Assembly (NCBI GenBank): GCA_017543445.1 | Contig: JAFYGB010000007.1 | Span: forward strand, 1 to 33,334 | Direction of reading: 5' to 3' | Origin: Lachnospiraceae bacterium | Lineage (GTDB): Bacteria > Bacillota > Clostridia > Lachnospirales > Lachnospiraceae | DNA: 33,334 nt | Shown here: one piece after another, positions 7,508-32,898 of the stretch | Layout: each line of letters opens with the position of its first letter | How positions within the stretch are numbered: position 1 is the stretch's first letter | Made by a program: the position numbers and the translations under genes | The notes under the pieces: model-generated | The model's input: the letters and a program-made list of their open reading frames with translations, nothing else | The model's database searches: none | What the model was told of the DNA's origin: nothing

Positions 7508-7580
7508 TACATTTCGGTAGGAAAATCAAAAAAGCGCTCGTTTCAAAGGAAAACGACCAAAACACACAAGGAGGATGTTT

Positions 7581-9014
7581 ATGAAAAAGCATTTTATTTC
7601 AAACCACAATCGAATCGCGTCCCTGCTCATGGCAGGCGTTATGACGTGTACACTCCCGCTCGCCGGCTGCAGCAACCCGAATAACCCCGGCGGTAACACG
7701 ACCGAGGCCGATACCAAAGGTATAGTATCCACGAAGCCGGAGGAAACAACGAACCCGCGTGAGACTACAGAGCCGATGCCCACAGAGGCGGAGCCGACCG
7801 AAACAGGCGCAGCGGGCGATCCGAAAGAGACCGGAGAAGAGATCGAACCCACCAAAGAAACACCTCGCGAAAAGAGCGTGTTGACCGGCGAAGCAAAATC
7901 TTCTCTCGCAGGGCAGTACGACCACCTGACGCTGGATCTCATGACCCACGCGATCAAGGACACCACCGATAACGTCATGATCTCCCCTCTCTCGATCCTG
8001 ACCGCACTCAGCATGACAGCCAACGGCGCGAGTGGGGAAACCCTCCGTGAGATGGAGCAGGTTCTCGGCGGCGAACTGAACATTTCGCAGCTCAACGAGC
8101 TCATCAAGGCTTACAGCGATGCATTGCCCTCTTCTGAAGAAGCGAAGCTGGCCATTGCGAACTCCATTTGGTATAAGGATGCCCCCGGAGTTTCCATCCG
8201 TGAGGACTTCCTGAAAGCAAACCAGAAGTATTATAGCGCTGGCATCTTCCCGGCAGCCTTCGATAATCAAACCGTTACCGATATCAATAACTGGGTCGAT
8301 AAAAACACCGACGGCATGATCAAAAAGCTGCTCGACGAACTCAGCCCGGAAAACCGCATGATCCTGATCAATGCCATCCTGTTCGACGGAAAATGGGAAC
8401 AGCAGTATTATGAAGATGATGTTTGGGAATTTCCGTTTACAGATGCCAAAGGAAACACGAAAAACGTGAAGCAAATGGTATCCACAGAGTACACTTACCT
8501 GTCCGATGAGGACTGCATGGGCTTTATGAAGTCTTATAAGGGTGGAAAATACGCCTTCGTCGGTCTCCTCGGAAGGGAAGGACTGACCCCAGATGATCTT
8601 CTCTCGAAGATGACTGAGGAGCAGCTCCAGAACCTCTTTAAGAACGCTCAGGATCGTAAAGTATACGTTCGCATCCCGAAGTTCACCTTCGACTATTCGG
8701 TTACCATGAACGATATTTTGAAGTCCATGGGCATGAAGCAGGCGTTCGATCCCGAACTTGCGGATTTCTCCGGTATGACCGATAATGACCGCTTCGTAAT
8801 CAGCAAGGTCCTGCACAAGACCCGCGTGGAAGTGACCGAAAAAGGCACCCGCGCAGCAGCTGTGACCGGCGTTATGGTCGATACCTGCGCGATGCCGGAG
8901 CCGGAGGAGGTTCCTGAAGTATATCTGAACCGTCCGTTCGTATTCATGATCATAGATACCGAAATGAACCTGCCGATCTTCATCGGACGGGTAAATACCA
9001 TCGAGAAGCAGTAA
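7581..9014 (+). CDS. Serpin lipoprotein 1 (surface protease inhibitor)
   Basis: A 477-residue lipoprotein: signal peptide with lipobox LPLAGC (Cys30), a Thr/Pro/Glu-rich stalk (about 32-105), then a complete serpin domain (about 108-477). Serpins trap proteases irreversibly after cleavage in the reactive-centre loop. Family signs are NNVMISPLSILTALSMTANG, the hinge EKGTRAAAVT (residues 420-429) with small residues as needed for loop insertion, and the C-terminal signature VYLNRPFVFMI. Counting from the hinge, P1 falls at or near Cys in DTCAMP; the loop is about 5 residues longer than in alpha-1-antitrypsin, so the exact bond is uncertain. The start at 7581 is preferred over 7575, which directly abuts AAGGAGG. 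It is the first of three serpin genes in a row, 27 bases before the next. Confidence 0.93.
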   Translation: MKKHFISNHNRIASLLMAGVMTCTLPLAGCSNPNNPGGNTTEADTKGIVSTKPEETTNPRETTEPMPTEAEPTETGAAGDPKETGEEIEPTKETPREKSVLTGEAKSSLAGQYDHLTLDLMTHAIKDTTDNVMISPLSILTALSMTANGASGETLREMEQVLGGELNISQLNELIKAYSDALPSSEEAKLAIANSIWYKDAPGVSIREDFLKANQKYYSAGIFPAAFDNQTVTDINNWVDKNTDGMIKKLLDELSPENRMILINAILFDGKWEQQYYEDDVWEFPFTDAKGNTKNVKQMVSTEYTYLSDEDCMGFMKSYKGGKYAFVGLLGREGLTPDDLLSKMTEEQLQNLFKNAQDRKVYVRIPKFTFDYSVTMNDILKSMGMKQAFDPELADFSGMTDNDRFVISKVLHKTRVEVTEKGTRAAAVTGVMVDTCAMPEPEEVPEVYLNRPFVFMIIDTEMNLPIFIGRVNTIEKQ

Positions 9015-9041
9015 TCTACGCTACAGGAAGGAGATGTTACG

Positions 9042-11159
9042 ATGAAACGCAAATCATTAAGTATATGTTCACTCGCATTGTCTGCAGCCCTTTTGGCGGG
9101 CTGTAGCAACCCCAATGCATCCGCACCGAAGGAAACGACCGCCCCGACCACAACGGCCGAGCCTAAGAAGACCGAGCCGGCGACGACCGAGCCTGTGACA
9201 GCAGGGCCGACCGAAGTCGAGCCGACGAAGACTGCGCCGACACCGACCGACCCGACCACGGTCGCTCCTTCCGATCCCGGAAATCTATCCGAGGTCTCCC
9301 TGAATGTTCAGTATGATCAATTCACTCTGGAACTCCTGAAGCGTGCACTTGCGGAAGAAAAAAACAACGTCATGATCTCGCCGCTGTCCATGATGCAGGC
9401 CCTGTCCATGACGGCCAATGGTGCCGCCGGCAACACCGCACAGGAGATGCTGTCCGTTCTCGGCGGCGGCATGACGATGGAGCAGCTAAATTACGTGCTG
9501 AATAAGTATACGAACTCTCTTCCGTCGTCGGAAGATGCATTGCTCTCCGTTGCAAATTCCATTTGGTACAAAGATACCCCGGAATTCTCCCTCCGTGAGG
9601 ATTTCCGTAATGCGACACAGAAATACTACAGCGCCGATATCTTCCCCTCCGCATTCGATAAAGCGGCCGTGACGCAGATCAACAAATGGGTCAGTGACAA
9701 GACCGACGGTATGATCAGCAAAGTTCTGGATCAAATGGCCCCGAACGTTCGCATGCTCCTGATCAATGCGATCCTCTTCGACGGAAAGTGGGCAGAGGAA
9801 TACTACGAAGACGCGATTCAGAAACTCCCGTTCACGAACGCTGACGGCGAGAAGAAAGAAGTCGAAATGATGAGTTCCTCCGAAGGTGTTTATCTTTCCA
9901 ACGATAAGTGCGTCGGTTTCATGAAGTATTACAAGGGCAGCCGTTATGCGTTTGTTGGTCTGCTCCCGAAGCAGGGTACACCGGATCAACTGATCTCGGA
10001 AATGACCGCAAAAGATCTGCAGGATCTGTTTAACGATCAAGAGAAGCGAGAAGTACACACTCTTATCCCGAAGTTCACCTTCGACTACAGCAAGTCCATG
10101 AACGAGATTCTTATTTCCATGGGCATGAAGGATGCTTTTGACGATACGAAGGCCGATTTCTCAAATCTTTCCAATATACCGCTCTACATTTCCGACGTGC
10201 TTCACAAAACGCGCGTGGAAGTGACGGAAAAAGGTACCCGCGCAGCCGCTGTGACCGTAGTCACTATGACTGAGAATTGTGTGATACCCGAAGAGACCCC
10301 GTCCGTTTACCTGGATCGTCCGTTCGTTTTCATGATCGTCGATACCGATCAGTACCTGCCGATCTTTATCGGCCGTGTGAACGATCTCGAAGGTACTCCG
10401 ATCGCATCGAAGGGTGCCATCGCTCCGGATAATGATACACCGGAAAACGATAAGCCGATTAGCCATGCCAAGGAAGTAGACATTTCCGACGAACTCGCCC
10501 AGATCTGCACCGATCCTCTGCTGCTCGACATTTTTAAGGAGAAGGTGACTCCGGTCCTGGTTGAATACGGCTTCAGCGGAGAAGCAGGTTATTCCCTCTG
10601 CTCCACGGATGAAGAGGCGATCATCGCAGAGTTTATCGAAGCGATCCGTGAACTGAACATCGAGGAATGCATCTCCAAAACCGAGCGCGTCTCCTTTTAT
10701 GCGGACTACGGCTGCGATATTATCTTCCACACTTCCGATGGTCGTAAGGCCACGGTAAGCTTCGACGGTCTCGAGTATATGTACATCGGAGAAGCCACCT
10801 ACAAGGTCGGAAAATCGGCCCGCTTTGCAAATATCTGTGAGCTCATGCCGTACGTACCCGTTCTCGCCGATATCTCAGAAGACTATATCGCGGTGCTGCA
10901 CGGCGGCGCCGGTGAACGGACCTACGAAACCTACGTATATAAGGCCGGTGACGGTTACATGTTCTACAACGTAACATCCACCACAGTATCCTGGGGCGCC
11001 ACCGAGTGGACACATAAAGTCAACGACTATGGTTTTACCGACTCTAAAGAAGAGATCCTCCGCAGAGCGAAGGCCCACGGTGCCGACCAATGCATGACCT
11101 ATGACGACGATAACAAAGCTTACCCGATCGAAGATTTCCTGAATTCGAAGGAGGGATGA
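9042..11159 (+). CDS. Serpin lipoprotein 2 with an extra C-terminal domain
   Basis: A 705-residue lipoprotein. Lipobox LLAGC (Cys21), repetitive Thr/Glu/Pro stalk (about 25-85), serpin domain (about 88-450), a polar linker (about 451-477), then about 230 residues that I do not recognise. The serpin core is intact: NNVMISPLSMMQALSMTANG, hinge EKGTRAAAVT (396-405), signature VYLDRPFVFMI. Hinge counting puts P1 at Asn or Cys in TENCVIP, different from serpin 1. The extra domain contains alternating hydrophobic strands (VSFYADYGCDIIF, GLEYMYIG, YETYVYKAG) and looks folded rather than like a linker. A serpin whose C terminus continues into another domain is unusual, because serpins normally end about 30 to 40 residues after the loop. 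ATG preceded by GGAAGGAG at 8 bases. Confidence 0.92.
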   Translation: MKRKSLSICSLALSAALLAGCSNPNASAPKETTAPTTTAEPKKTEPATTEPVTAGPTEVEPTKTAPTPTDPTTVAPSDPGNLSEVSLNVQYDQFTLELLKRALAEEKNNVMISPLSMMQALSMTANGAAGNTAQEMLSVLGGGMTMEQLNYVLNKYTNSLPSSEDALLSVANSIWYKDTPEFSLREDFRNATQKYYSADIFPSAFDKAAVTQINKWVSDKTDGMISKVLDQMAPNVRMLLINAILFDGKWAEEYYEDAIQKLPFTNADGEKKEVEMMSSSEGVYLSNDKCVGFMKYYKGSRYAFVGLLPKQGTPDQLISEMTAKDLQDLFNDQEKREVHTLIPKFTFDYSKSMNEILISMGMKDAFDDTKADFSNLSNIPLYISDVLHKTRVEVTEKGTRAAAVTVVTMTENCVIPEETPSVYLDRPFVFMIVDTDQYLPIFIGRVNDLEGTPIASKGAIAPDNDTPENDKPISHAKEVDISDELAQICTDPLLLDIFKEKVTPVLVEYGFSGEAGYSLCSTDEEAIIAEFIEAIRELNIEECISKTERVSFYADYGCDIIFHTSDGRKATVSFDGLEYMYIGEATYKVGKSARFANICELMPYVPVLADISEDYIAVLHGGAGERTYETYVYKAGDGYMFYNVTSTTVSWGATEWTHKVNDYGFTDSKEEILRRAKAHGADQCMTYDDDNKAYPIEDFLNSKEG

Positions 11160-11164
11160 TATCT

Positions 11165-13069
11165 ATGAAACGAAAAGGCTTGAAACTCTATACGCTGGCC
11201 CTGTCGACAGCATTGCTGGCGACAGGATGCAGCAATCCGTCACAGACGGGAAGTACGACAGCTGCCCCGGAAACCACGACGGCTGCCAAACCAGAGACCA
11301 CGGGGGCCACGCAACCTGCAACCACCCCTGCGAGCGTGCCTGCGACACAGTCGACCGAGCCTGCAACCACGGCTACGCCCGAAACCGAGCGACCGGTCAT
11401 CAACGATGAACTCTTCTATGAAACCGCAAAAGACGAGCACATGCCGGTCTTCTGCGTCGGGACCGGTTTTATCGGCTCGGATAAATGGGTGCGCTTCAGC
11501 GAACGCATTGAAACGACAACTGCGGTTACCGATGGTATGTTTCTGGAGATCCACGCCGACATCAAATACATGTCAGGTGGCATCGTCGGTTACGAACACG
11601 AACCTGTGATCGAAAAGTTGTACAGCGAGACCCCCGTCGACTATGACACCGCGATCTCGAAATACAAGATCCCGGAATTAGCGGAAAACAAAGCCTGCTA
11701 CATCCACTACTATTCGGTGAATTCCTTAAACTACATCATCGTTCGGGACGCAAGCGAATATCGTGTCTACTGTAGCAACAAATACTTAGGCGCGATCCCG
11801 CTCAACACGCATGCTCCGGCCACGACCCCCACGGCAGAGGAAATGGATCTCTTCCTGAATTCGATCCGCGTTCAGGTCAACGAAAACACTACGATCAACG
11901 CTTCAGAACTGACCGCAGGCCATAAGGACGACTCGATCACGACCGTTCCCATCGCCGAAGCATTTACCGAGAGTTTTCAGAACTTCACGTCCGCACTCTC
12001 AAAAACCGTTTTTGAAAACGCGAAGCCCGGGGAAAACTTCCTGGTTTCCCCGCTCTCCGTCATGACCTGCATGTCCATGGCAGCAAACGGTGCGGACAAT
12101 GAAACCCTCGCCCAGATCGAAAAGGTCATGGGAGGCAACCTCTCGATGGTCGACATTGCCCCGAGCCTGTATTCCTACTACGCTTTTCTCGCAGAGAAAG
12201 CCCCGGAGGTTTTTTCCACCGCAAACTCGATCTGGATCAATGAGCAGAACAGCACCGCCGACCAGATCCGCGAGGATTTCCTGAAGAAGAATATCAGCTA
12301 CTTTGACGCCGCGGTCTATCGGACGGTATTCGACACTGCCGCTCTTTCCGATATCAACAACTGGTGCAGTCAGAAGACAAACAACATGATCCCGAAGCTC
12401 ATGGATGAACTGTCTCCGCAGAGTGCCATGATCCTGATCAATGCCCTTTGCTTCGAGTCATACTGGCAGAAACCGTTTGAAGCAAACGACACCAAACAGG
12501 GTACCTTTACCGATGCGAACGGTAAGGAACTCCTCGTAGACCGGATGTCCGGAAGCGCGGATTACTACCTGGAAGGCGACGATTATACCGGTTTCATGAA
12601 ATCCTACCGGGATGTTCCCTTTGCATTTGCCGCTCTTCTTCCGAAGGAAGGCGAGACCGCTGAGGATCTGCTGAAGAGCTTCAGCGGCTCCGACTACGCT
12701 TCTCTTCTTACAGACCGGCAAGCCGAGGACGTGTACGTAGTCATCCCGAAATTCAAGTTCGACGCCGACTACCTGCTGAACAATTCACTACAGCAACTCA
12801 GTATTAAGGACGCATTCGTTTCAGGTCTGGCGGATTTCTCCGGCATGACCGGTGATAAGTCCCTGTACATCAGCAAGGTGATCCATAAGACACACATCGA
12901 GCTTTCGGAACAAGGCACACGTGCCGCTGCCGTAACCGCGATCGAAATGCGCAAATTAGCATTCGCAATGTCGGAGCATAAAGTCGTTTTGGATCGCCCC
13001 TTCGTATTTATGATCCTGGATACCCAATACGGGCTTCCAATCTTCGTCGGTGTAACACAGACCGTGTGA
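11165..13069 (+). CDS. Serpin lipoprotein 3 with an extra N-terminal domain
   Basis: A 634-residue lipoprotein. Signal peptide with lipobox LATGC (Cys22), Thr/Ala/Pro-rich stalk (about 25-76), an unrecognised domain (about 80-240, from VINDELFYETAKDEHM), then a serpin domain (about 265-634). Serpin signs are FLVSPLSVMTCMSMAANG, hinge EQGTRAAAVT (582-591) and signature VVLDRPFVFMI. Hinge counting puts P1 near Leu in MRKLAFA, so its loop differs from the other two and could face a different protease. An ATG at 11156 overlaps the previous stop but directly abuts AAGGAGGG; 11165 gives normal spacing. The gene follows serpin 2 at 5 bases, so all three are probably one operon. It is the most divergent of the three serpin domains. 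Confidence 0.92.
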   Translation: MKRKGLKLYTLALSTALLATGCSNPSQTGSTTAAPETTTAAKPETTGATQPATTPASVPATQSTEPATTATPETERPVINDELFYETAKDEHMPVFCVGTGFIGSDKWVRFSERIETTTAVTDGMFLEIHADIKYMSGGIVGYEHEPVIEKLYSETPVDYDTAISKYKIPELAENKACYIHYYSVNSLNYIIVRDASEYRVYCSNKYLGAIPLNTHAPATTPTAEEMDLFLNSIRVQVNENTTINASELTAGHKDDSITTVPIAEAFTESFQNFTSALSKTVFENAKPGENFLVSPLSVMTCMSMAANGADNETLAQIEKVMGGNLSMVDIAPSLYSYYAFLAEKAPEVFSTANSIWINEQNSTADQIREDFLKKNISYFDAAVYRTVFDTAALSDINNWCSQKTNNMIPKLMDELSPQSAMILINALCFESYWQKPFEANDTKQGTFTDANGKELLVDRMSGSADYYLEGDDYTGFMKSYRDVPFAFAALLPKEGETAEDLLKSFSGSDYASLLTDRQAEDVYVVIPKFKFDADYLLNNSLQQLSIKDAFVSGLADFSGMTGDKSLYISKVIHKTHIELSEQGTRAAAVTAIEMRKLAFAMSEHKVVLDRPFVFMILDTQYGLPIFVGVTQTV

Positions 13070-25308: not shown

Positions 25309-25575
25309 TCACTTCGTATCGTCAGTATCCCAACGACCGATTGGACAATACAAGGGGGATTTTGCCGCTCTCACTTGCACATAACATCCGCATTCCATGC
25401 ACATGCCGTCACTAAGCATGTTACACTCTTCGCATACCGCAAGACGTCGATTATAAACATAAGGAGGAGTTCGAACGTCATCAGGTATTTGATTCAAGAA
25501 AGCTTGTACCTTTTCCCTATAATCACTTCCATCATAATCTCTCAGCAGACATTTACCGCACTTTGCATTACTCAT
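25309..25575 (-). CDS. Small cysteine-rich protein, DUF6171-like
   Basis: An 88-residue protein with eight cysteines in pairs: Cys6/Cys9 (KCGKCLLRD), Cys48/Cys51 (CEECNML), Cys59/Cys62/Cys64 (CMECGC) and Cys77, suggesting one or two zinc sites. The pattern ([35 protein letters not shown]) matches a small uncharacterised family I know as DUF6171, common in Clostridia. Its start overlaps the end of the arabinofuranosidase gene by 8 bases, so it is translated from the same mRNA. Function unknown. Confidence 0.78.
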
Positions 25576-27034
25576 GACAGATTACCGTCACGACACTGCA
25601 AGGAGGAAGTGAAACAATTATTTTATCTCCATCTTTTGTAGCCTTGTAGGGGACGATAGAGACTTTTTCCGGATCTGTAAAATCGTTGTGCGCGTGCACC
25701 TCGTTCGTGAGGATCTGCGCATCGATCGTCTTTGCGTTGTAGCCGCAAAGGTCACAGGAGACCTCGTAGGTCTCGTCGAGCATACAGTTGGCAAACGTGA
25801 TGACCAGATCGCGGTCTTCGTTCATGGAAGCCGAGTAAGAGATCGCCGGAACGCCTTCGCGAACTTCGTTCTCTACAAAGCTGTCCACCAAATCATTGCC
25901 CTGGTGCTCCTTAAACATATCGAATACGTGGTAGGTCGGTGTTTTCACCATCTTCTCGCCCTCGGTGAGGATGAGGGACTGGAGAACATTGACCGCCTGG
26001 GCAATGTTTGCCATACAAACGATATCCGAATGCTGGTTGAAGATATTCAGGTTGATCGCAGCCACGATCGCGTCACGCATCGTGTTCTGCTGGAACAGGA
26101 AGCCGGGGTTCGTTCCGGGCTCGACATCGTACCAGCATCCCCACTCATCCACGATCAGCTTCATCTGCTTCGTGTGGATGGAAAGCAACGCACCGTGCTT
26201 TTTGATCATATCTTCGATGCAAAGCGTGTGCTCGATGGTCTGATAGTACTCTTTGTCGTCGAACTCGGTCGAGCTGCCCTTATGCTGCCAGTCGCCAGTC
26301 GGCAATGTGTAGTAGTGCATCGAGATCGCATTCGCATGCATGTCGTTGATGTTGTGCAGCAGACCTTCGGTCCAGTTGTACTGGGAGTCGCTCGGTCCGC
26401 AAGCTACCTTAAACAGACGGTTGCCGCTGAAGTTTTTGGCAAATGTCTGGAAGCGGCGATATACGTCCGCATAATACTCCGGCCGCATGTTGCCGCCGCA
26501 GCCCCAGTTCTCGTTTCCGATCCCCAGGTATTTCAACTTCCACGGCTTCTCGCGTCCGTTATCCCGGCGCAGCTGCGCCATCGGGGACACACCGTCGAAG
26601 GTGATGTATTCGATCCAGTTCGCCATCTCCTCGACCGTGCCGCTGCCGACATTGACCGAGAGGTAAGGCTCACAACCTACTGCTTCACAGAAATTGAAGA
26701 ACTCGTTGGTACCGAAGGAGTTATCCTCGGTAACGCCGCCCCAGTTGGTATTTACCATCTTCTTGCGGCTTTCCTTCGGGCCGATGCCGTCCATCCAGTG
26801 ATACTCATCCGCGAAACAGCCGCCGGGCCAGCGGATGACGGGCATCTTTATCTGACGGAACGCCTCAATGATGTCCTTACGAACACCGCCGATATTCGGG
26901 ATCGGTGAGTCCTCTCCCACGAAGATGCCTTTGTAGATGCAACGTCCGAGGTGCTCGGAAAAATGTCCGTAGATCTCGGGGTTGATATGGGACTTGCGGT
27001 TGTATGTATTGATCACCGCATTTATCTTCTTCAT
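25568..27034 (-). CDS. abfA: GH51 alpha-L-arabinofuranosidase
   Basis: A 488-residue intracellular glycoside hydrolase of family 51 that releases L-arabinose from arabino- and arabinoxylo-oligosaccharides. The acid/base is E175 in GIGNENWG and the nucleophile E297 in [30 protein letters not shown] and [19 protein letters not shown] are further family blocks. No signal peptide, length typical (about 490-500). The ATG has GGAGG at 9 bases and a promoter of its own upstream. The arabinose released could feed AraD (1.8-2.5 kb). The sensor-LytTR regulator encoded directly upstream on the same strand may control it. Confidence 0.96.
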
Positions 27035-27072
27035 ACGTGTAAACCTCCGAAGCAGTTTATAAATTCTTTAGA

Positions 27073-27101
27073 ATTATACCGCTATTCAATTCCCAAAACA
27101 A
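27073..27101 (-). promoter_or_regulatory. Promoter of the GH51 gene
   Basis: On the minus strand TTGTTT (27096-27101) and TATAAT (27073-27078) with a 17-base spacer, about 40 bases before the start codon. Confidence 0.7.
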
Positions 27102-27154
27102 TGATATATCTTCTCTTTTAACTGACGGATTCTCTTTTTTTGTGTTTCGTCACA

Positions 27155-28942
27155 TCACGTAATGCTCAAGTGATCCTTGAAGTCCTTCACATATTTACGC
27201 GAGACGCGAACTGTGCTTTTATCCGTAAGATAGACCAAAAGCGTACGATCGACATCTGGTTTGATTCTCGCCACTTTATCTACAGAAAGCAGGACGGATT
27301 TGGAAATCCGGACGAATCCGCGTCCGGAAAGCTGCAGTTCCAGCTCATATAATTTCTGCCGGCTCTCGTAGTTTCCACCCTTCGTGTGGGCATAGACTTT
27401 CTTATCGACTGCCTCAAAATAGAAGACATTGACCACATTGACCTTACACATGATGTCATCTTTCAAAACGAAGATGGTCGACGACTGCGTCGTCGTGTCT
27501 GCCTGCGGTTTCTCCGCCTCCGACGCGCGGTTCGTGCGAGCCGCGGAATGTGCGGGAGCCCCTCCGCCCGGCATCGTATCTTCCGACGGCAGCGAACTTT
27601 CGACCCATCTGCCGGATACGGACACGAGTTCCCGTTCTCTGAGGTTATACAGGCCGACCGCGATGTGGCGGCAAATGCGGCGCAGCAGGTCGGTGTAGAT
27701 CGTCGCCTCCGGGTAGCCGACCACCAGATAGCCGAGCTTCTGTCCGGCAAAATTCAGCGGCACCATATGGAAGTTCAACACCTGTTCATCGATGGTCGTG
27801 TCGACTGGGAAATAAACCCCCTTCGGCATGATCTCCGGATTACCGGCGGAAATCGCTTCCGTCGCAAATATGCAGGCGATCCGGTTATCCGGCGTATAAC
27901 GGCACAGCGCCACGTAATTCTGCTCAGGGATCAGGTAGATCAAATTCTCGAATCGATGCACAAACTCATCCTGATCCGCCGCCGTATACAGGCGCTCCAC
28001 GATCTCACTGTTTGCAAAATACATCTCCTGCCGGTCGACGGTCTTTCGGTGATGCAGCATCTCCTTAACATCGCTGCGCGGCGGACGCGTGCAGCCGCAG
28101 CTGCGCCCTGGGCACAGTTCAAATTCCAATTCTTTATAAACTTCGGCGGTCTCGCCGGTCATCATCTCAAATAACGCGGTAAATGCCCGCGCGCCCCAGT
28201 AAGCAGAGTCAGCCTTGATCGTCAGGATGGACACGGCCGGGTTATCCGCCTGCGAATGCCCGTCAAATCCGGAAACCAGAACGTCCTCCGGTACCCGGAC
28301 GCCGTATTCGGACAGTTCCGAGATCAATGCATAAGCTACGATGTCATCGATACATACGACCGCATCAGGCATCTTCACCTTACCGAACGCCAGGTTCTTC
28401 GCCAGACGCTGGGCACAATCGATCCAATATCCGCCATACAGAAGGGTATCATTTCCCGCCTCGATGCCATGCTTCGCCAGGGAATTCAGAAATCCGGCGA
28501 TACGCTTGCTGTTGTGCTCCTTCAAACCTCCGAGGAAATACAGGTTCTTACATCCGTGCTCCTCGATCAGATGGTCTGTGATCATCTCGAATTCCGGCTC
28601 ATTATTCATGGACAGCTTATCCGGAAAATAATCCGACTGTCCCAAAACCATCGTCGGCACCTTACAATATTTCTTAAGAATGCCGTCGATCTTCCTGCCG
28701 ACCCCTTTATGCGCGGAAAAAGAGCGCTCGATGAACATCACTCCGTCGTAATGCTCAAACGGAATGTTCTCAAAGATGCACTCTTCATCATTCGTATTCA
28801 ATCGCTCAAAGTTGAGCATGGAGTAGACCGTAGTCTCATACCCCAGAACCTCTGCCTGGCGCTCTATGCCATAACAAAAGCCATCATTATACTCTCCGAC
28901 AAAACCGGAAAGCAAAATACATACCTTACCTCTGTCCTTCAC
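27155..28942 (-). CDS. Sugar-sensor / GAF-like / LytTR transcriptional regulator
   Basis: A 595-residue cytoplasmic protein with an unusual order of parts. Residues about 6-285 are a LacI-type periplasmic-binding-like sensor (KVCILLSGFVGEYNDGFCYG, DAVVCIDDIVAYALISEL, VPEDVLVSGFDGHSQADNP, ending SCGC) without the helix-turn-helix that normally precedes it. About 310-435 resembles a GAF-like domain, 445-485 is a disordered Ala/Ser/Thr linker, and about 495-592 is a LytTR DNA-binding domain (KVYAHTKGG, FVRISKSVLLSVDKVARIKP, VRVSRKYVKDF). It probably binds a sugar and DNA through different ends. Start is GTG at 28942 with GGAGG at 9 bases. It lies just upstream of the GH51 gene, its most likely target. 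Confidence 0.85.
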   Translation of the reverse strand: MKDRGKVCILLSGFVGEYNDGFCYGIERQAEVLGYETTVYSMLNFERLNTNDEECIFENIPFEHYDGVMFIERSFSAHKGVGRKIDGILKKYCKVPTMVLGQSDYFPDKLSMNNEPEFEMITDHLIEEHGCKNLYFLGGLKEHNSKRIAGFLNSLAKHGIEAGNDTLLYGGYWIDCAQRLAKNLAFGKVKMPDAVVCIDDIVAYALISELSEYGVRVPEDVLVSGFDGHSQADNPAVSILTIKADSAYWGARAFTALFEMMTGETAEVYKELEFELCPGRSCGCTRPPRSDVKEMLHHRKTVDRQEMYFANSEIVERLYTAADQDEFVHRFENLIYLIPEQNYVALCRYTPDNRIACIFATEAISAGNPEIMPKGVYFPVDTTIDEQVLNFHMVPLNFAGQKLGYLVVGYPEATIYTDLLRRICRHIAVGLYNLRERELVSVSGRWVESSLPSEDTMPGGGAPAHSAARTNRASEAEKPQADTTTQSSTIFVLKDDIMCKVNVVNVFYFEAVDKKVYAHTKGGNYESRQKLYELELQLSGRGFVRISKSVLLSVDKVARIKPDVDRTLLVYLTDKSTVRVSRKYVKDFKDHLSIT

Positions 28943-28991
28943 TTTCTGCTGCCTCCGACCGATATTAATCTTCGTTGCATACCATGCCGCT

Positions 28992-29021
28992 ATAATACCA
29001 TGGCAACTTACGCAAAGTCAA
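28992..29021 (-). promoter_or_regulatory. Promoter of the sensor-LytTR gene
   Basis: On the minus strand TTGACT (29016-29021) and TATTAT (28992-28997) with an 18-base spacer, about 50 bases before the GTG start. Confidence 0.6.
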
Positions 29022-29201
29022 GCAATTTCAAAGCAAAATCATGTAAACGCACAGAATAACTTGCCAAATGCGCATACTAAGTTTCCAAGTTTCCACAGCG
29101 TCTTCCCACGCTTTAAAACGTGGCATTTCATTTCGCATTTTCGGCATCTTATCCTGCCATACGACCTTTCGAAAAAATTTTCGCCCTGTTATCGTGATTG
29201 A
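29022..29201. other. Intergenic stretch between the sensor-LytTR promoter and the RNA promoter
   Basis: No gene is seen. It contains a small inverted repeat CCACG/CGTGG with an 8-base AT-rich centre (29106-29123), a direct repeat GTTTCCAAGTTTCC (29091 area) and several GCATTT(C) words. These could be regulator sites for either divergent promoter. Confidence 0.4.
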
Positions 29202-29230
29202 TTGAAATCCCCCCCAAATCTATATATAAT
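29202..29230 (+). promoter_or_regulatory. Near-consensus promoter of the large structured RNA
   Basis: TTGAAA (29202-29207), a 17-base spacer and TATAAT (29225-29230). It is one of the best promoters in the window. The spacer contains a run of seven C. The predicted start of transcription is near 29237, and no ribosome binding site with a credible reading frame follows. Confidence 0.8.
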
Positions 29231-29236
29231 GTACTC

Positions 29237-29775
29237 GGTTGAGAAAGAACTCCTACATCTTTCGTCAATCAAACTTTGTATCTGTTTAAAGCCTGTTCTT
29301 CGGTGTCTAGGGGGACGCTCGGAAAGCAGTGTTTGATACAAACTGAGGAAGGTTGCTTGTCAGCTTTCTATTTGATGCAGTCTGGGGGAGATTGCATTTC
29401 TTCCGATTTAGAAAGCTGACGACACACTTCTAATTACTTAGCATTCATCCTTTTCTCAATATAATGCAGCCATTGTGCACACCAGTGGTTGTTTTCCCGT
29501 TAGAACACACTCCGCCAAACATGGTGGGGTGTGTTCTAATGTGTGGGAAACTACAAGCGGTGCACAAGAATAGGCCCACTTCACTTGAGAGCTCGCTCTC
29601 ATAAGTGAGGGGGCCTATTCTTGTATAGCGCGACAGCGCGACATGAGCCGGCCAAAGGCCGGCGAATGGGCACCGCTCGTAGTCTGGGTGGGAGCTTGCT
29701 CTTCAATACAAAAATAACTAATCCTGTACCCTATCCGGCCTTCAGCCAGCCCTCTAGGGTACAGGATTTTCTTGT
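29237..29775 (+). ncRNA. Candidate large structured non-coding RNA (about 540 nt)
   Basis: Between a strong promoter and a terminator, nearly all of this stretch can fold. Stems seen: 29239-29248 with 29258-29268; TTTGTATC/GATACAAA (29275-29282, 29335-29342); GTCAGCTTTCTA/TAGAAAGCTGAC, 12 bp (29359-29370, 29409-29420), enclosing a 9-bp stem (29375-29383, 29389-29397) with a GGGGG loop; TTGTGCAC/GTGCACAA (29473-29480, 29560-29567), enclosing a 17-pair stem (29500-29516, 29523-29539); AAGAATAGGCCC/GGGCCTATTCTT, 12 bp (29566-29577, 29611-29622); GCCGGCC/GGCCGGC (29647-29653, 29657-29663); and a long-range 14-base pairing (29550-29563 with 29670-29683, one G-T mismatch) closing the last two. Signatures of RNase P, tmRNA, SRP and 6S RNA are absent. 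Size and style resemble ornate large RNAs such as ROOL or OLE, but I cannot assign a class. Confidence 0.75.
29721..29775 (+). terminator. Terminator of the large RNA
   Basis: ATCCTGTACCC (29721-29731) pairs over 11 bases with GGGTACAGGAT (29757-29767), followed by TTTCTTGTTTTT. The plus-strand T-run agrees with the plus-strand promoter at 29202. Confidence 0.85.
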
Positions 29776-29912
29776 TTTTCCATCTTCGTTTCAATTATTT
29801 GTACCCCTTCGGCCTTCTCAGCCTCCTTTAGGGTACACTCTATCTTCGATCAAGCTTCATCAAGTTCATTTTTCGTACCCTAAACGGTACTTGCACCTCT
29901 CCACGGGGTACG
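29726..29912. repeat. Three GTACCC-armed hairpins at a 74-75 nt period
   Basis: GTACCC begins at 29726, 29801 and 29875, each followed by a complementary GGGTAC (29757-29762, 29831-29836, 29906-29911). Units 1 and 2 also share CGGCCTTC and a C/T-rich loop, so they look like copies of one element. Unit 1 is the RNA terminator; units 2 and 3 lack a T-run after the hairpin. The rest of the gap up to the Nudix gene shows nothing else. Confidence 0.7.
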
Positions 29913-29955
29913 AATCGTACAAATTGTGGAATCGCCGAAAGAACAGCTAGCCTTA

Positions 29956-30453
29956 TCACACTTTCGCGATCTTCTCGGCAAACAATTCATATCTCTTCCC
30001 GACGGAGTGCGCAAACTCTCCGTTTGCGATCATCCGGCGTATCTCGGCGTCTGTCGCCCACTTCACGTCCACGGCTTCTTCTTCCTGAAGCACGATGTCT
30101 TCCAGTGCCACATCCCTGTGCAGGATGTAGATATCCAGGAAATAATTCTTCTTCTGATAGGTCGCCAAAAACGTAAGTTCGCTTTCTTCTGCTTTAATGG
30201 CGGTCTCTTCGAGTAATTCACGTACCGCCGACTGTTTTGTCGTTTCTCCGGCCGCGGTCCCGCCGCCGACGAATTCCCACTGGTTTCCGGCCTTCAGGGC
30301 GGGATGTCGCTTCGTCGTCAGGAACGCTCCAGCCGAATTCATGACCCAGACTTCACAGCAAACATAGTACTCTCCCTCTTCAAATGCAGTTCCGCGCGCA
30401 TGCGTCCGCCCCAGCGGCTTGCGTTCTGCGTCATACAGATCCCAATATTCCAT
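29956..30453 (-). CDS. Nudix hydrolase
   Basis: A 165-residue Nudix protein, which cleaves a nucleoside diphosphate linked to another group. The Nudix box is at about residues 64-86 (GGTAAGE, then REL and LEE), with alanine in the last glycine position. The N-terminal MEYWDLYDAERKPLGRTHARG resembles Nudix proteins annotated as isopentenyl-diphosphate-isomerase-like, but the substrate is not predictable. The start at 30453 lies one base after the stop of the histidine phosphatase gene, with GGAGG inside that gene; the open frame extends to 30606 without family support. It is the last gene of the right-hand five-gene run. Confidence 0.9.
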   Translation of the reverse strand: MEYWDLYDAERKPLGRTHARGTAFEEGEYYVCCEVWVMNSAGAFLTTKRHPALKAGNQWEFVGGGTAAGETTKQSAVRELLEETAIKAEESELTFLATYQKKNYFLDIYILHRDVALEDIVLQEEEAVDVKWATDAEIRRMIANGEFAHSVGKRYELFAEKIAKV

Positions 30454-30454
30454 C

Positions 30455-31144
30455 CTACATATCCTCCAATCGGTGATATTTTCCCTCGTGGATATGACGC
30501 CCGTCATTTCCCAGTTCGATGCACGGCAAGGTCGCGCTGCCCGCCTTTCGGTCGAAACGCAGCGTGGTGATGCCGGTAAACTCCATGTGAAACAAAGCGC
30601 AAACATACGGGAATGGCAGGTTCAGGATATGCCCGATCGCCGCGGCCGACGATCCGCCATGGCTGAACAGCGCGATGGTCCTGTGCTGCTCCTCCTCTCG
30701 CTTATGCAGGTAATAGAATCCTCTCCGCTCATAGCCGAAGTCGGCCAGCCAGGCGTCGATGCCCTTCTCGACTTCATCCACGCACTCCGTCACGAAGTTC
30801 GTCTTGAAGTACGGGCTCTCCCGCCAGTCGGTCCGGTTTAGGTCAATGCCTTCCTGGGCCATTTTATCTGCGATATCCCAGGGATGGCCGCCATGGTACA
30901 AGTTCTTCTCTTCATTGCCCCAGCGGACTTCCCGCATGAAATCCAAGGTCTGGATGGGTAAGTCCAGCACCTGCGCCGCAGCCTGCGCGGTCTCCTGCGC
31001 CCGGCCCAGCGGCGAAGCATAGATCTCCTCGATTCCCTCTTCCCGCAGGCGCTGCGCCATCCGCTGTGCCTGTATCTTCCCGATCTCGGTCAGACAGTCG
31101 TTCTTGTAGTCCGGATCTCCGTGCCGGATAAATAAGATCCTCAT
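30455..31144 (-). CDS. Histidine phosphatase family protein
   Basis: A 229-residue protein of the phosphoglycerate-mutase-like histidine phosphatase superfamily. The phosphorylated histidine is in the N-terminal RHG motif (LFIRHGDPDY), the acidic partner region is YASPLGRAQETA, and the second histidine is in ALFSHGGSSAA. Such enzymes remove phosphate from small metabolites or proteins. Its ATG overlaps the stop of the upstream kinase-like gene (ATGA), and the Nudix start follows its stop by one base, so all are translated from one mRNA. Confidence 0.91.
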   Translation of the reverse strand: MRILFIRHGDPDYKNDCLTEIGKIQAQRMAQRLREEGIEEIYASPLGRAQETAQAAAQVLDLPIQTLDFMREVRWGNEEKNLYHGGHPWDIADKMAQEGIDLNRTDWRESPYFKTNFVTECVDEVEKGIDAWLADFGYERRGFYYLHKREEEQHRTIALFSHGGSSAAAIGHILNLPFPYVCALFHMEFTGITTLRFDRKAGSATLPCIELGNDGRHIHEGKYHRLEDM

Positions 31145-32187
31145 AGGTCGGTCCTTTCTTTCGCCAGACGCACCAGCGCCGCCGAGATCTCCTCGATGCG
31201 CGTGTAGACCTCACGGCACACGCCCGTGCGCCACGTGGCAAATTCCAGCAACGCATCACGGTTCTCCGTCTTCTGCACCAGGTACTCCTTATAGCCGTAG
31301 CTGCTCCGTGCCAGTTGCACGAGATACACGTACGGCATCGCTTCCAGGTCCCGCTCGGTCAATTCAAAATACTTCCGATACACGTTAACGTAGTCGCAAA
31401 AGTCCTCGACATCGAAGGGCGCGCCGTTTTGACAGGCGCCAAACGACTGCACGTACGAGCGCATGAGTTCCCAGACCGCCGGCAGCTTCGTCGCCGTCGT
31501 GAAATCGATCACCGCCCGCACCCGCTCGTCATCACAGATCAATTGACATGCCGTGTAATCGCCGTGACTCGGTGTGTAAGTGATGCCCTTATAGTACGAC
31601 CGCATATCTGCGATCTTCGCGGACAATTCCTTCTTAAACCGTAGATCCTCGCGGATCCGTTCGTAATTCGGATCGTCCTTGTATTCTTCCAAAACCGCCA
31701 GCAAGGCGTCGATCTTCTCCGAAGCATTCGCCGATGTGGCGATCTCCACCCACTTCTCGTCCATGCTCGTTTCCATCGGATAGTCCTTCAGGATCCGGTG
31801 CAGCATCCCGAGGTATATTGCGCAATCCTTCCGATAGCGCCGCGGCAGGTCGTTTAAGTAGCATTGTCCGTCCACAAATTCCTGTACGGCCAATGTGCGC
31901 CCGAGGACGCTGATGCACGACCTTCCGTCCGTCGTCAGGATAAAGTTCGCGACCGGGAAGTCCTGCGTACGCAAATACGCGACCAGTTCTGCCTCTTTCT
32001 TCACGCGGTCCATATCATACTCACTCTGATATTCCTTCACGAAGAAGACGCCCTCGTCGCAGCGCGCTTTATAACAGTTCGCCGATCCCAGCGACAGACG
32101 CTTTGGCTCGACCAGATGGAGGCCGTAAGCATTCGCCAAGATGTCGCGTAGTTCGGCCTCAGCCAAGACACTCTTCTCCAGTGCCAT
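31141..32187 (-). CDS. APH/CotS-like phosphotransferase
   Basis: A 348-residue protein with the aminoglycoside-phosphotransferase / CotS kinase-like fold. The catalytic loop is SHGDYTACQLICDD, with the metal-binding IDF in VIDFTTATK; the N-terminal part contains GSANCYKARCDEGVFFVKEY with the probable ATP-binding lysine. The size and layout are like spore coat CotS-type and homoserine-kinase-like proteins. The substrate is unknown. It overlaps the histidine phosphatase by 4 bases and follows the tyrosine phosphatase gene by 15 bases. Confidence 0.82.
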   Translation of the reverse strand: MALEKSVLAEAELRDILANAYGLHLVEPKRLSLGSANCYKARCDEGVFFVKEYQSEYDMDRVKKEAELVAYLRTQDFPVANFILTTDGRSCISVLGRTLAVQEFVDGQCYLNDLPRRYRKDCAIYLGMLHRILKDYPMETSMDEKWVEIATSANASEKIDALLAVLEEYKDDPNYERIREDLRFKKELSAKIADMRSYYKGITYTPSHGDYTACQLICDDERVRAVIDFTTATKLPAVWELMRSYVQSFGACQNGAPFDVEDFCDYVNVYRKYFELTERDLEAMPYVYLVQLARSSYGYKEYLVQKTENRDALLEFATWRTGVCREVYTRIEEISAALVRLAKERTDL

Positions 32188-32202
32188 CGCATTTCCCCCA
32201 CT

Positions 32203-32898
32203 CTATTTCAAAACCAGTTCCTTAAACCGCGCGAGCTCCTCCTCCGGCAAGCCCAGCGATCCGAAGAAATCCGGAAGTGCGTCCATCTCCGCCCAGGCGC
32301 CTTCCAGATACCCGCGGTCCGCGATATACGCGCGGTACACGCTCTCCGCGACCTCGTCGCCGCGCTCCGCCCGAAGGCGCTCCCGGATGGCCTCCGCCTT
32401 CGGGATGTTCACCTCATTCGTTTTCAGGTAATCCTCCATGATGGTCGCCCGGTCCACCCCCAGGATCTCCAAAAGTAGCGCAGCCGTCAGCCCGCAGCGG
32501 TCCTTACCCTCGGTGCAGTGCCACAGCACAGCCCCGGTGGAGTAATCGTGCCGCAGGATGGCTGTCAAAACCTCCGCAAAGGAGTCCCGATGTTCCCGGA
32601 TCATCCACTTATACAGAGCTCCCATATCGGGCGGTCCTTTGCGTTCGACCTTCTTCTCATGGCTGATACCGGACTTCGCTTCATCAAATATCGGGATCGG
32701 ATGGCTCGTCCTGCCGCACGGCTGGTCGGGAACTTCGATGCGCTCCCGCGTGGTCCGCAGGTCAATGATCTCGGATATTCCGACCAGATCGGCCTCCTCC
32801 GCCCGTGATAGATTTGCCGAGCGCACGAAGCACCCGTGCTTTATCGTTTTTCCCGAGGCGGTCCGAAGCCCGCCCAGATCCCGTAGATTTGAAATCAT
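32203..32898 (-). CDS. Tyrosine-phosphatase-like protein (Y_phosphatase3 type)
   Basis: A 231-residue protein with the cysteine phosphatase loop HCTEGKDRCG (nucleophile Cys128) and the N-terminal NLRDLGGLRTASGKTIKHG block of the PTP/MptpB-like family that acts on phosphotyrosine or phosphoinositides. The DLRTTRER segment is also conserved. Length is typical (about 230-260). The start ATG at 32898 has AAAGG at a long 14-base spacing, so initiation may be weak or coupled. It follows the right-edge phosphotransferase by 45 bases. Confidence 0.9.
   Translation of the reverse strand: MISNLRDLGGLRTASGKTIKHGCFVRSANLSRAEEADLVGISEIIDLRTTRERIEVPDQPCGRTSHPIPIFDEAKSGISHEKKVERKGPPDMGALYKWMIREHRDSFAEVLTAILRHDYSTGAVLWHCTEGKDRCGLTAALLLEILGVDRATIMEDYLKTNEVNIPKAEAIRERLRAERGDEVAESVYRAYIADRGYLEGAWAEMDALPDFFGSLGLPEEELARFKELVLK

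Follow-up and report, generated by a model that had tools for sequence, protein, structure and literature searches.

What is encoded at 29202-29775, in the space between a regulator gene (27155-28942, minus strand) and a NUDIX gene (29956-30606, minus strand) on a contig of a Lachnospiraceae bacterium, and what might it do? The initial annotation of the window, by which we mean the whole 33,334-nucleotide stretch of DNA analysed here, proposed an RNA of about 540 bases with its own promoter and terminator. We find that a structured RNA with its own promoter is indeed predicted there, but that its length is likely ~390 nt. With high confidence, we take it to be a real and new structured RNA gene restricted to one genus, where new is meant relative to Rfam. 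The gene and its promoter are placed as follows:

29202-29230, plus strand: RNA promoter, TTGAAA-17-TATAAT, matching the consensus at 11/12 positions
29237-29624, plus strand: predicted structured non-coding RNA gene, its start placed 6-8 nt after the -10 and its end at the terminator hairpin

The RNA is present in all six genomes of the genus (own species included), and the near-consensus promoter read in the initial annotation is borne out by them, with the -10 TATAAT identical in all six and the -35 being TTGAA(A/T) across the set. Its claim of dense folding likewise holds: the excess of folding stability is large at 29235-29780 (z -14.6, with 0 of 100 shuffles as stable) and persists at 29235-29625 (z -12.4) and in the RNA core at 29235-29548 (z -8.6; 60 shuffles each), the predicted fold of the core giving z values of -6.7 to -8.6 in 6/6 genomes. 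We also agree that the stretch has no credible protein gene, since the longest frame kept in the six genomes has 21 codons. On the plus strand, only two frames keep both start and stop in all six, and these are nested, of 14-15 codons and devoid of a ribosome-binding site; the minus strand has six such frames of 8-21 codons and none longer. With only short conserved frames on either strand, we reject a protein-coding reading. A dual-function RNA or small-protein mRNA, comparable to RNAIII with its small peptide, would have the 14-codon frame MQSGGDCISSDL(E/G)S from 29375 translated, which we regard as very improbable: its start and stop are common to the six genomes, but the 16 bases upstream contain no ribosome-binding site, the frame lies inside a hairpin (H3, below), its sequence is nearly invariant at all codon positions and the E/G change keeps the stem paired.

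The 3′ end of the RNA depends on how three overlapping or adjacent elements are interpreted:

29564-29624, plus strand: likely terminator hairpin with the loop region TGAGAGCTCGCTCTCA, with counterparts in four relatives (G001, G002, G003, G005)
29720-29775, plus strand: second terminator-like hairpin, with a 14-bp stem (29720-29733/29755-29768) followed by T-rich sequence
29550-29690, no strand assigned: palindromic low-copy repeat around the terminator, containing a 14-base pairing (29550-29563/29670-29683)

The first hairpin follows hairpin H5 (below) and features the loop region GAGAGCTNGCTCTC or a close variant; even with 1 mismatch allowed, the loop string has no second occurrence in the own genome. 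Its stem sequences differ between the genomes, except between G000 (the own genome) and G005; an insertion precedes it in G001 and G002, and the contig of G004 ends inside it. The T-runs are clear in G001, G002 and G003 and poor in G005 and the own species. Taken as the terminator, this hairpin gives a transcript of ~390 nt, and this is where the RNA most likely ends; as the T-run is poor in the own species, read-through to the hairpin at 29720-29768 is possible. The initial annotation had put the terminator near 29775; the hairpin is present as a second terminator-like element, and the next 3 kb of the five relatives, as far as their regions reach, lack an 11-base string of its arm. The terminator scan did not list this hairpin, presumably because its 21-base loop exceeds the limit of the scan.

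The 14-base pairing, which had been counted as part of the RNA, exists; it appears instead to be the outer stem of the low-copy repeat and to lie outside the conserved RNA. The segment 29622-29680 recurs on further contigs of the own genome (G000:C15, 33507-33568) and of three relatives (G001:C50, G002:C21, G004:C2 and C10), stands in tandem in G002 and G004, and on 4/5 of the other contigs lies within 140 bases of the contig end. We take the pairing as the outer stem of the repeat because the G002 copies are bounded by similar outer arms. As 29550-29690 alone has a z of -11.1, the repeat accounts for much of the helix density. The repeat contains the small hairpins GCGCGACAGCGCG and GCCGG..CCGGC. 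A separate cluster of palindromes on GTACCC/GGGTAC, some of them terminator-like, occupies 29720-29910 between the RNA and the NUDIX gene.

A cis-acting leader or riboswitch was rejected, as the own species has no same-strand gene just downstream and the next gene, at 29956-30606, is on the opposite strand. Beyond the RNA, G001, G002, G003 and G005 also have opposite-strand genes of other families (the contig of G004 ends), and the gene past the RNA end is not the same throughout: NUDIX in the window, diacylglycerol-kinase-like in G001 and G002, APH in G003 and NUDIX with APH in G005. In G001 a same-strand 166-aa ORF without a Pfam match lies between the RNA and the opposite-strand gene.

Upstream of the terminator, the RNA is predicted to comprise these elements:

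29237-29270, plus strand: hairpin H1, with the invariant loop ACUCCUACA (29249-29257), folding in 6/6 genomes
29275-29342, plus strand: domain P2, with the closing stem GUAUC/GRUAC, an inner hairpin and a G-rich loop (29308-29313), of similar topology in the six
29359-29420, plus strand: hairpin H3, with a 12-bp stem (29359-29370/29409-29420) and an inner hairpin with a GGGGG loop
29441-29518, plus strand: 78-base run identical in six genomes, comprising a pyrimidine-rich single strand with CAUCCUUUUCUC, H4 and the 5′ half of H5
29466-29492, plus strand: hairpin H4, inside the 78-base invariant run
29499-29540, plus strand: hairpin H5, 19 pairs

H3 additionally displays an unpaired strand, UCUUCCGAUU (29399-29408). 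Identity to the own genome is 73-86% for the regulator gene, 90-92% for the arabinofuranosidase gene downstream of it and 72-88% for the intergenic 29041-29202, and reaches 100% at 29441-29492. The 5′ domain at 29271-29344 is only 35% invariant and falls into two types (G000, G001, G002 and G005 versus G003 and G004), all six sharing a similar topology in which the GUAUC/GRUAC stem closes off a hairpin whose loop is G-rich. As a side observation, G005 has the most distant regulator gene (73%), yet its 29271-29344 is closer to G000 (80%) than are those of G003 and G004 (47% and 57%), a pattern that suggests exchange of RNA alleles by recombination.

A test for covariation in homologues, which the initial annotation had proposed, had a mixed outcome. 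In the RNAalifold structure of the six sequences, 95.9% of the cells are paired, as against 43-49% for slid versions; 23 additional pair types are seen, and at 4 pairs both sides have changed. Of 500 shuffles, the real values were reached by 1 for paired cells, 47 for pair types, 38 for two-sided pairs and 3 for the covariation score. P2 holds three of the pairs changed on both sides, but 7/14 of its inner pairs are unpaired in some sequences, which is perhaps in part due to the alignment. In the helices of H3, H4 and H5 most pairs are constant, and pairing survives the few changes seen; helices 5, 6, 7 and 9 are 100% paired, and for H3 the outer helix (13 pairs) and the inner one (10 pairs) are 100% paired in the six sequences. 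We read this as modest covariation support for H1 and P2, drawn from six sequences in which most pairs are invariant.

Does the RNA belong to a known class? Covariance-model searches, suggested at the outset for ROOL, OLE, GOLLD and all of Rfam, gave no family match: Rfam 15 has none at the gathering score in the window or in the five relatives, and up to E 5 in the window there are four chance-level matches, none of them to OLE, ROOL or GOLLD. A search for tRNA and tmRNA found none in the stretch, and the 6S RNA model (RF00013) has no match in it, in keeping with the earlier reading that housekeeping RNA signatures are lacking; the 6S RNA of this genome is found elsewhere (G000:C64:31719-31897, 84.7 bits), and we reject both 6S and tmRNA identities. 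Of the two options first offered, membership in OLE, GOLLD or ROOL is not supported, whereas an RNA undescribed in Rfam is. Computational catalogues of structured RNAs also exist in the literature. That the RNA is a member of one of these large classes, too diverged for its model, we hold to be barely conceivable: its size and helix density and a ruminant source, as in the name of ROOL, would fit, but neither the E 5 search of the window nor the gathering-score search of the relatives found a match, and the layout and neighbours differ. What it shares with OLE, ROOL and GOLLD is being a structured bacterial non-coding RNA; those RNAs are larger than one of ~390 nt. The giant ornate RNA reading was set aside, since the RNA probably falls short of the length first proposed and what surrounds it suggests a regulatory RNA under LytTR control. 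Conservation, folding and the Rfam searches support a standalone structured non-coding RNA that has a promoter and a terminator of its own.

Its distribution is narrow. In 397 family genomes, a DNA search retrieved three members of the genus, counting the own species, plus a single match of 33 nt in G057 (E 4.8e-4), which we read as chance. A covariance model of 29345-29543 only (R1), run with Infernal's stricter filters on samples of 397 family, 392 order and 391 class genomes, matched the genus members and gave single weak matches in G285, G306, G415, G527 and G814 (best E 0.002), also read as chance. An exact 19-mer was found in seven stretches of genome contigs, namely in five genus members, Sporomusa and one Bacteroidales record, the last two with flanks that by eye lack similarity. 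The DNA searches and the R1 model therefore yield no convincing relative outside the genus in the sampled genomes. A mobile origin was rejected as well: searching 50,697 phage and 72,556 plasmid records with 29235-29720 gave no match, and two exact patterns are absent from viral contigs.

The genes on the other side of the promoter are the constant companions of the RNA:

27155-28942, minus strand: regulator of 595 aa, with a Peripla_BP_3 domain (LacI-type sensor, residues 123-282, Pfam E 7e-18) and a LytTR DNA-binding domain (residues 498-592, Pfam E 2.4e-22)
28992-29021, minus strand: regulator promoter, TTGACT-18-TATTAT with a TG before the -10, 10/12 consensus positions
25568-27034, minus strand: alpha-L-arabinofuranosidase (Pfam), downstream of the regulator

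In 6/6 genomes the regulator and the RNA are divergent and the arabinofuranosidase comes after the regulator, and the gene order next to it is the same in the relatives. Searching 299 family genomes at E 1e-30 gave ten regulator matches, two of them full-length in genus members and eight to the sensor part only; among the genomes searched, neither the RNA nor the full-length regulator turned up outside the genus. The relatives of the sensor part with solved structures are regulators of the LacI type, PurR, CcpA and the arabinose repressor among them, a span from which no ligand can be named. Two sensor-only homologues from two other genera, examined in full (L038, 514-2433; L040, 1441-3384), have GGDEF in place of LytTR, so that the output domain behind the LacI-like sensor seems to have been swapped between genera. 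Seven nearby proteins scanned (25309-32898) belong to families other than AgrB, AgrD and AgrC. Elsewhere in the window lie three consecutive serpin-domain genes (7575-13066; Pfam E 5e-91, 3e-92 and 1e-77), which are unusual for a bacterium. With good confidence, we consider the RNA and the LytTR regulator beside it to be linked.

LytTR regulators bind two 9-bp direct repeats with a gap of mostly 12 bp, as in the published example GCATCTTAG-12-GCATGTTAC (PMC6193735). The region between the two divergent genes contains two candidates of this type and a further conserved element:

29123-29152, plus strand: LytTR-type direct repeat pair GCATTTCAT-12-GCATCTTAT, facing the RNA, rank 2 of 66,610
29056-29085, minus strand: LytTR-type direct repeat pair GAAACTTAG-12-GCAAGTTAT, facing the regulator gene, rank 5 of 66,610
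29165-29193, no strand assigned: block CCTTTCGAAAAAATTTTCGCCCTGTTATC, conserved in six genomes

The ranks, among 66,610 positions of the window, come from a matrix of 33 published LytTR 9-mers of other organisms, the sites having first been spotted by eye; in the regions of the relatives the two pairs rank 1 and 2 (L047, L048, L049, L050) or 1 and 5 (L046). The repeats of the plus-strand pair and their GGCA-17-GGCA spacing are kept in six genomes while the sequence of the spacer has diverged. Across the 2.64-Mb genome, a pattern derived from the sites matches twice, each time at this locus (reversed control 0); as about 0.9 matches are expected by chance on our estimate, only their joint location counts. 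The pairs are 49 bp from the -35 of the RNA promoter and 34 bp from that of the regulator promoter, at about -89 and -75 from the respective starts. In most tabulated LytTR systems the repeats are ~10 bp from the -35 (PMC6193735), the proximal agr repeat is centred near -60 (PMC4227749) and VirR boxes are confined to roughly 50 bp immediately upstream of the -35 (PMC2838878). The block at 29165-29193, between the putative operator and the RNA promoter, contains CGAAAAAATTTTCG and is possibly the site of another regulator or an alternative promoter. The unusual 49-bp gap from the plus-strand pair to the RNA promoter and this block, as a potential site of another factor, would fit an RNA under other factors, with its place beside the LytTR regulator incidental and the repeat pairs dedicated to the regulator promoter only. 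We nonetheless consider such an arrangement improbable, given that one repeat pair faces each promoter, that the 12-bp gaps occur in six genomes and that RNA and regulator co-occur in 6/6 of them.

If the RNA is controlled by this regulator, what could it act on? Its invariant unpaired segments that are rich in pyrimidines (the H1 loop, the H3 strand and 29446-29457) direct attention to ribosome-binding sites. The H3 segment CUUCCGA is complementary to UCGGAGG (7 pairs, one of them G-U), which is the ribosome-binding site of the arabinofuranosidase in 6/6 genomes and of the regulator in 4/6, the regulator of G003 and G004 having ACGGAGG. Among 82 ribosome-binding-like starts, from 94 automatically picked ORFs of the six loci, TCGGAGG is found in 10, all in the two divergent genes, a count in which orthologues are not independent, the motif was chosen after being seen and some ORFs are maybe not genes. 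As a control, eight genes that could be compared in six species were used, and the real segments match two of them in at least 5 species (shuffled mean 1.17): the arabinofuranosidase in 6/6 and PTS enzyme I in 5/6, the latter by an overlapping 7-mer. Of 300 shuffled segment sets, 7 equal the real set in their match to both divergent genes. Predicted duplex energies of four of the six segments are like those of shuffled ones, while H1 and H3 are ~3 kcal/mol better than the mean of 20 shuffles. The complement of CATTCATCCTTTTCTC (29442-29457) has 28 non-self matches with at most 2 mismatches in the six genomes (reversed control 8), an excess that fits its likeness to ribosome-binding sites; none of the matched strings recurs in more than 3 genomes. 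A ribosome-binding site common to the regulator and the arabinofuranosidase is thus a weak candidate for the target. The CUCCU of the H1 loop might form a kissing contact with the AGGGG or GGGAG loops; sequestration of CsrA by a loop GGA was set aside, as the GGA is at the loop edge.

The same data bear on a structured RNA that acts through a bound protein, as a sponge or scaffold, with the invariant G-rich loops (GGGGG, UAGGGG) and other loops as protein contacts. Such a role would account for loops and even stems that are invariant over long runs, beyond what pairing alone needs, and for base-pairing targets not having been convincingly found. We deem it unlikely, albeit worth keeping in mind: the neighbouring genes examined suggest no partner except the DNA-binding regulator, and several unpaired segments that never vary are rich in pyrimidines and complement purine-rich ribosome-binding sites.

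On balance, we lean towards a dedicated pair of regulator and RNA, in which the latter is a LytTR-controlled, trans-acting riboregulator. We propose that the LacI-type sensor domain of the 595-aa protein would bind a cytoplasmic ligand, probably a sugar or nucleotide, and that its LytTR domain would bind both direct-repeat pairs in the shared intergenic region, thereby controlling two divergent promoters, its own (with the arabinofuranosidase) and that of the ~390-nt RNA; for this dual control we rely on the sites, the domain and synteny. The RNA would then base-pair in trans through ACUCCUACA (H1 loop), UCUUCCGAUU (H3 strand) and CAUCCUUUUCUC (single strand) and mask ribosome-binding sites as RNAIII does. 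As a weak lead, pairing with the UCGGAGG ribosome-binding site of the divergent genes could provide negative feedback. In its fullest form, this would be an agr-like circuit devoid of quorum sensing, in which the LacI-sensor-LytTR protein drives the RNA and CUUCCGA of H3 feeds back on translation of the regulator and the arabinofuranosidase. We regard this version as doubtful; if true, RNAIII-type control would have arisen independently for plant-fibre use in ruminants. To our knowledge, it is mainly in pathogens that LytTR regulators have been seen to drive large regulatory RNAs (RNAIII, VR-RNA), and the combination of a genus-confined RNA whose core is highly conserved, a sensor-LytTR fusion and a plant-polysaccharide gene would extend this design to gut commensals and metabolite sensing. 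The locus is compact and testable, with one regulator, two putative operators, one RNA and a candidate target next door.

By analogy with characterized systems, the likeliest role of the RNA is that of a riboregulator acting in trans in the manner of RNAIII or VR-RNA. Rfam contains an RNAIII model, and neither the window nor the five relatives have a match to any Rfam family that would indicate homology to RNAIII. RNAIII has 514 nt and 14 stem-loops and pairs with mRNAs to block ribosome binding (PMC7602753), and the agr P2 and P3 promoters are divergent, with LytTR direct repeats upstream of both (PMC4227749). In both systems the gene of a structured RNA and the operon of a LytTR regulator point away from each other (here by gene order in 6/6 genomes) and both promoters have LytTR-type repeat pairs (here from sequence alone). 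Unlike in agr, the repeat pairs are farther from the promoters and the regulator is a one-component LacI-sensor fusion rather than a phosphorylated response regulator with peptide signalling; unlike RNAIII, the RNA has ~390 nt, with no delta-hemolysin-like frame seen. In the parts of the open-licence literature covered, no paper turned up on a LytTR and Peripla_BP_3 combination or on such a regulator paired with an RNA, which is weak evidence of novelty. VirR of Clostridium perfringens is also of the LytTR type. It controls VR-RNA, a regulatory RNA of 386 nt with predicted 5′-3′ pairing that acts by base pairing with a target leader (PMC4963840, PMC7602753), virS/virR and VR-RNA being scattered in that genome (PMC4963840). 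The RNA described here resembles VR-RNA in size and in the type of control proposed; control there is by the two-component VirS/VirR, with the motif CCAnTT-15-CCAGTT. HdrRM and BrsRM, finally, are autoregulating LytTR systems with 9-bp repeats and mostly 12-bp gaps (PMC6193735); in them the regulator has an inhibitory membrane protein as its partner and the genes under control encode proteins, whereas the locus described here would combine a fused LacI-type sensor with an RNA output.
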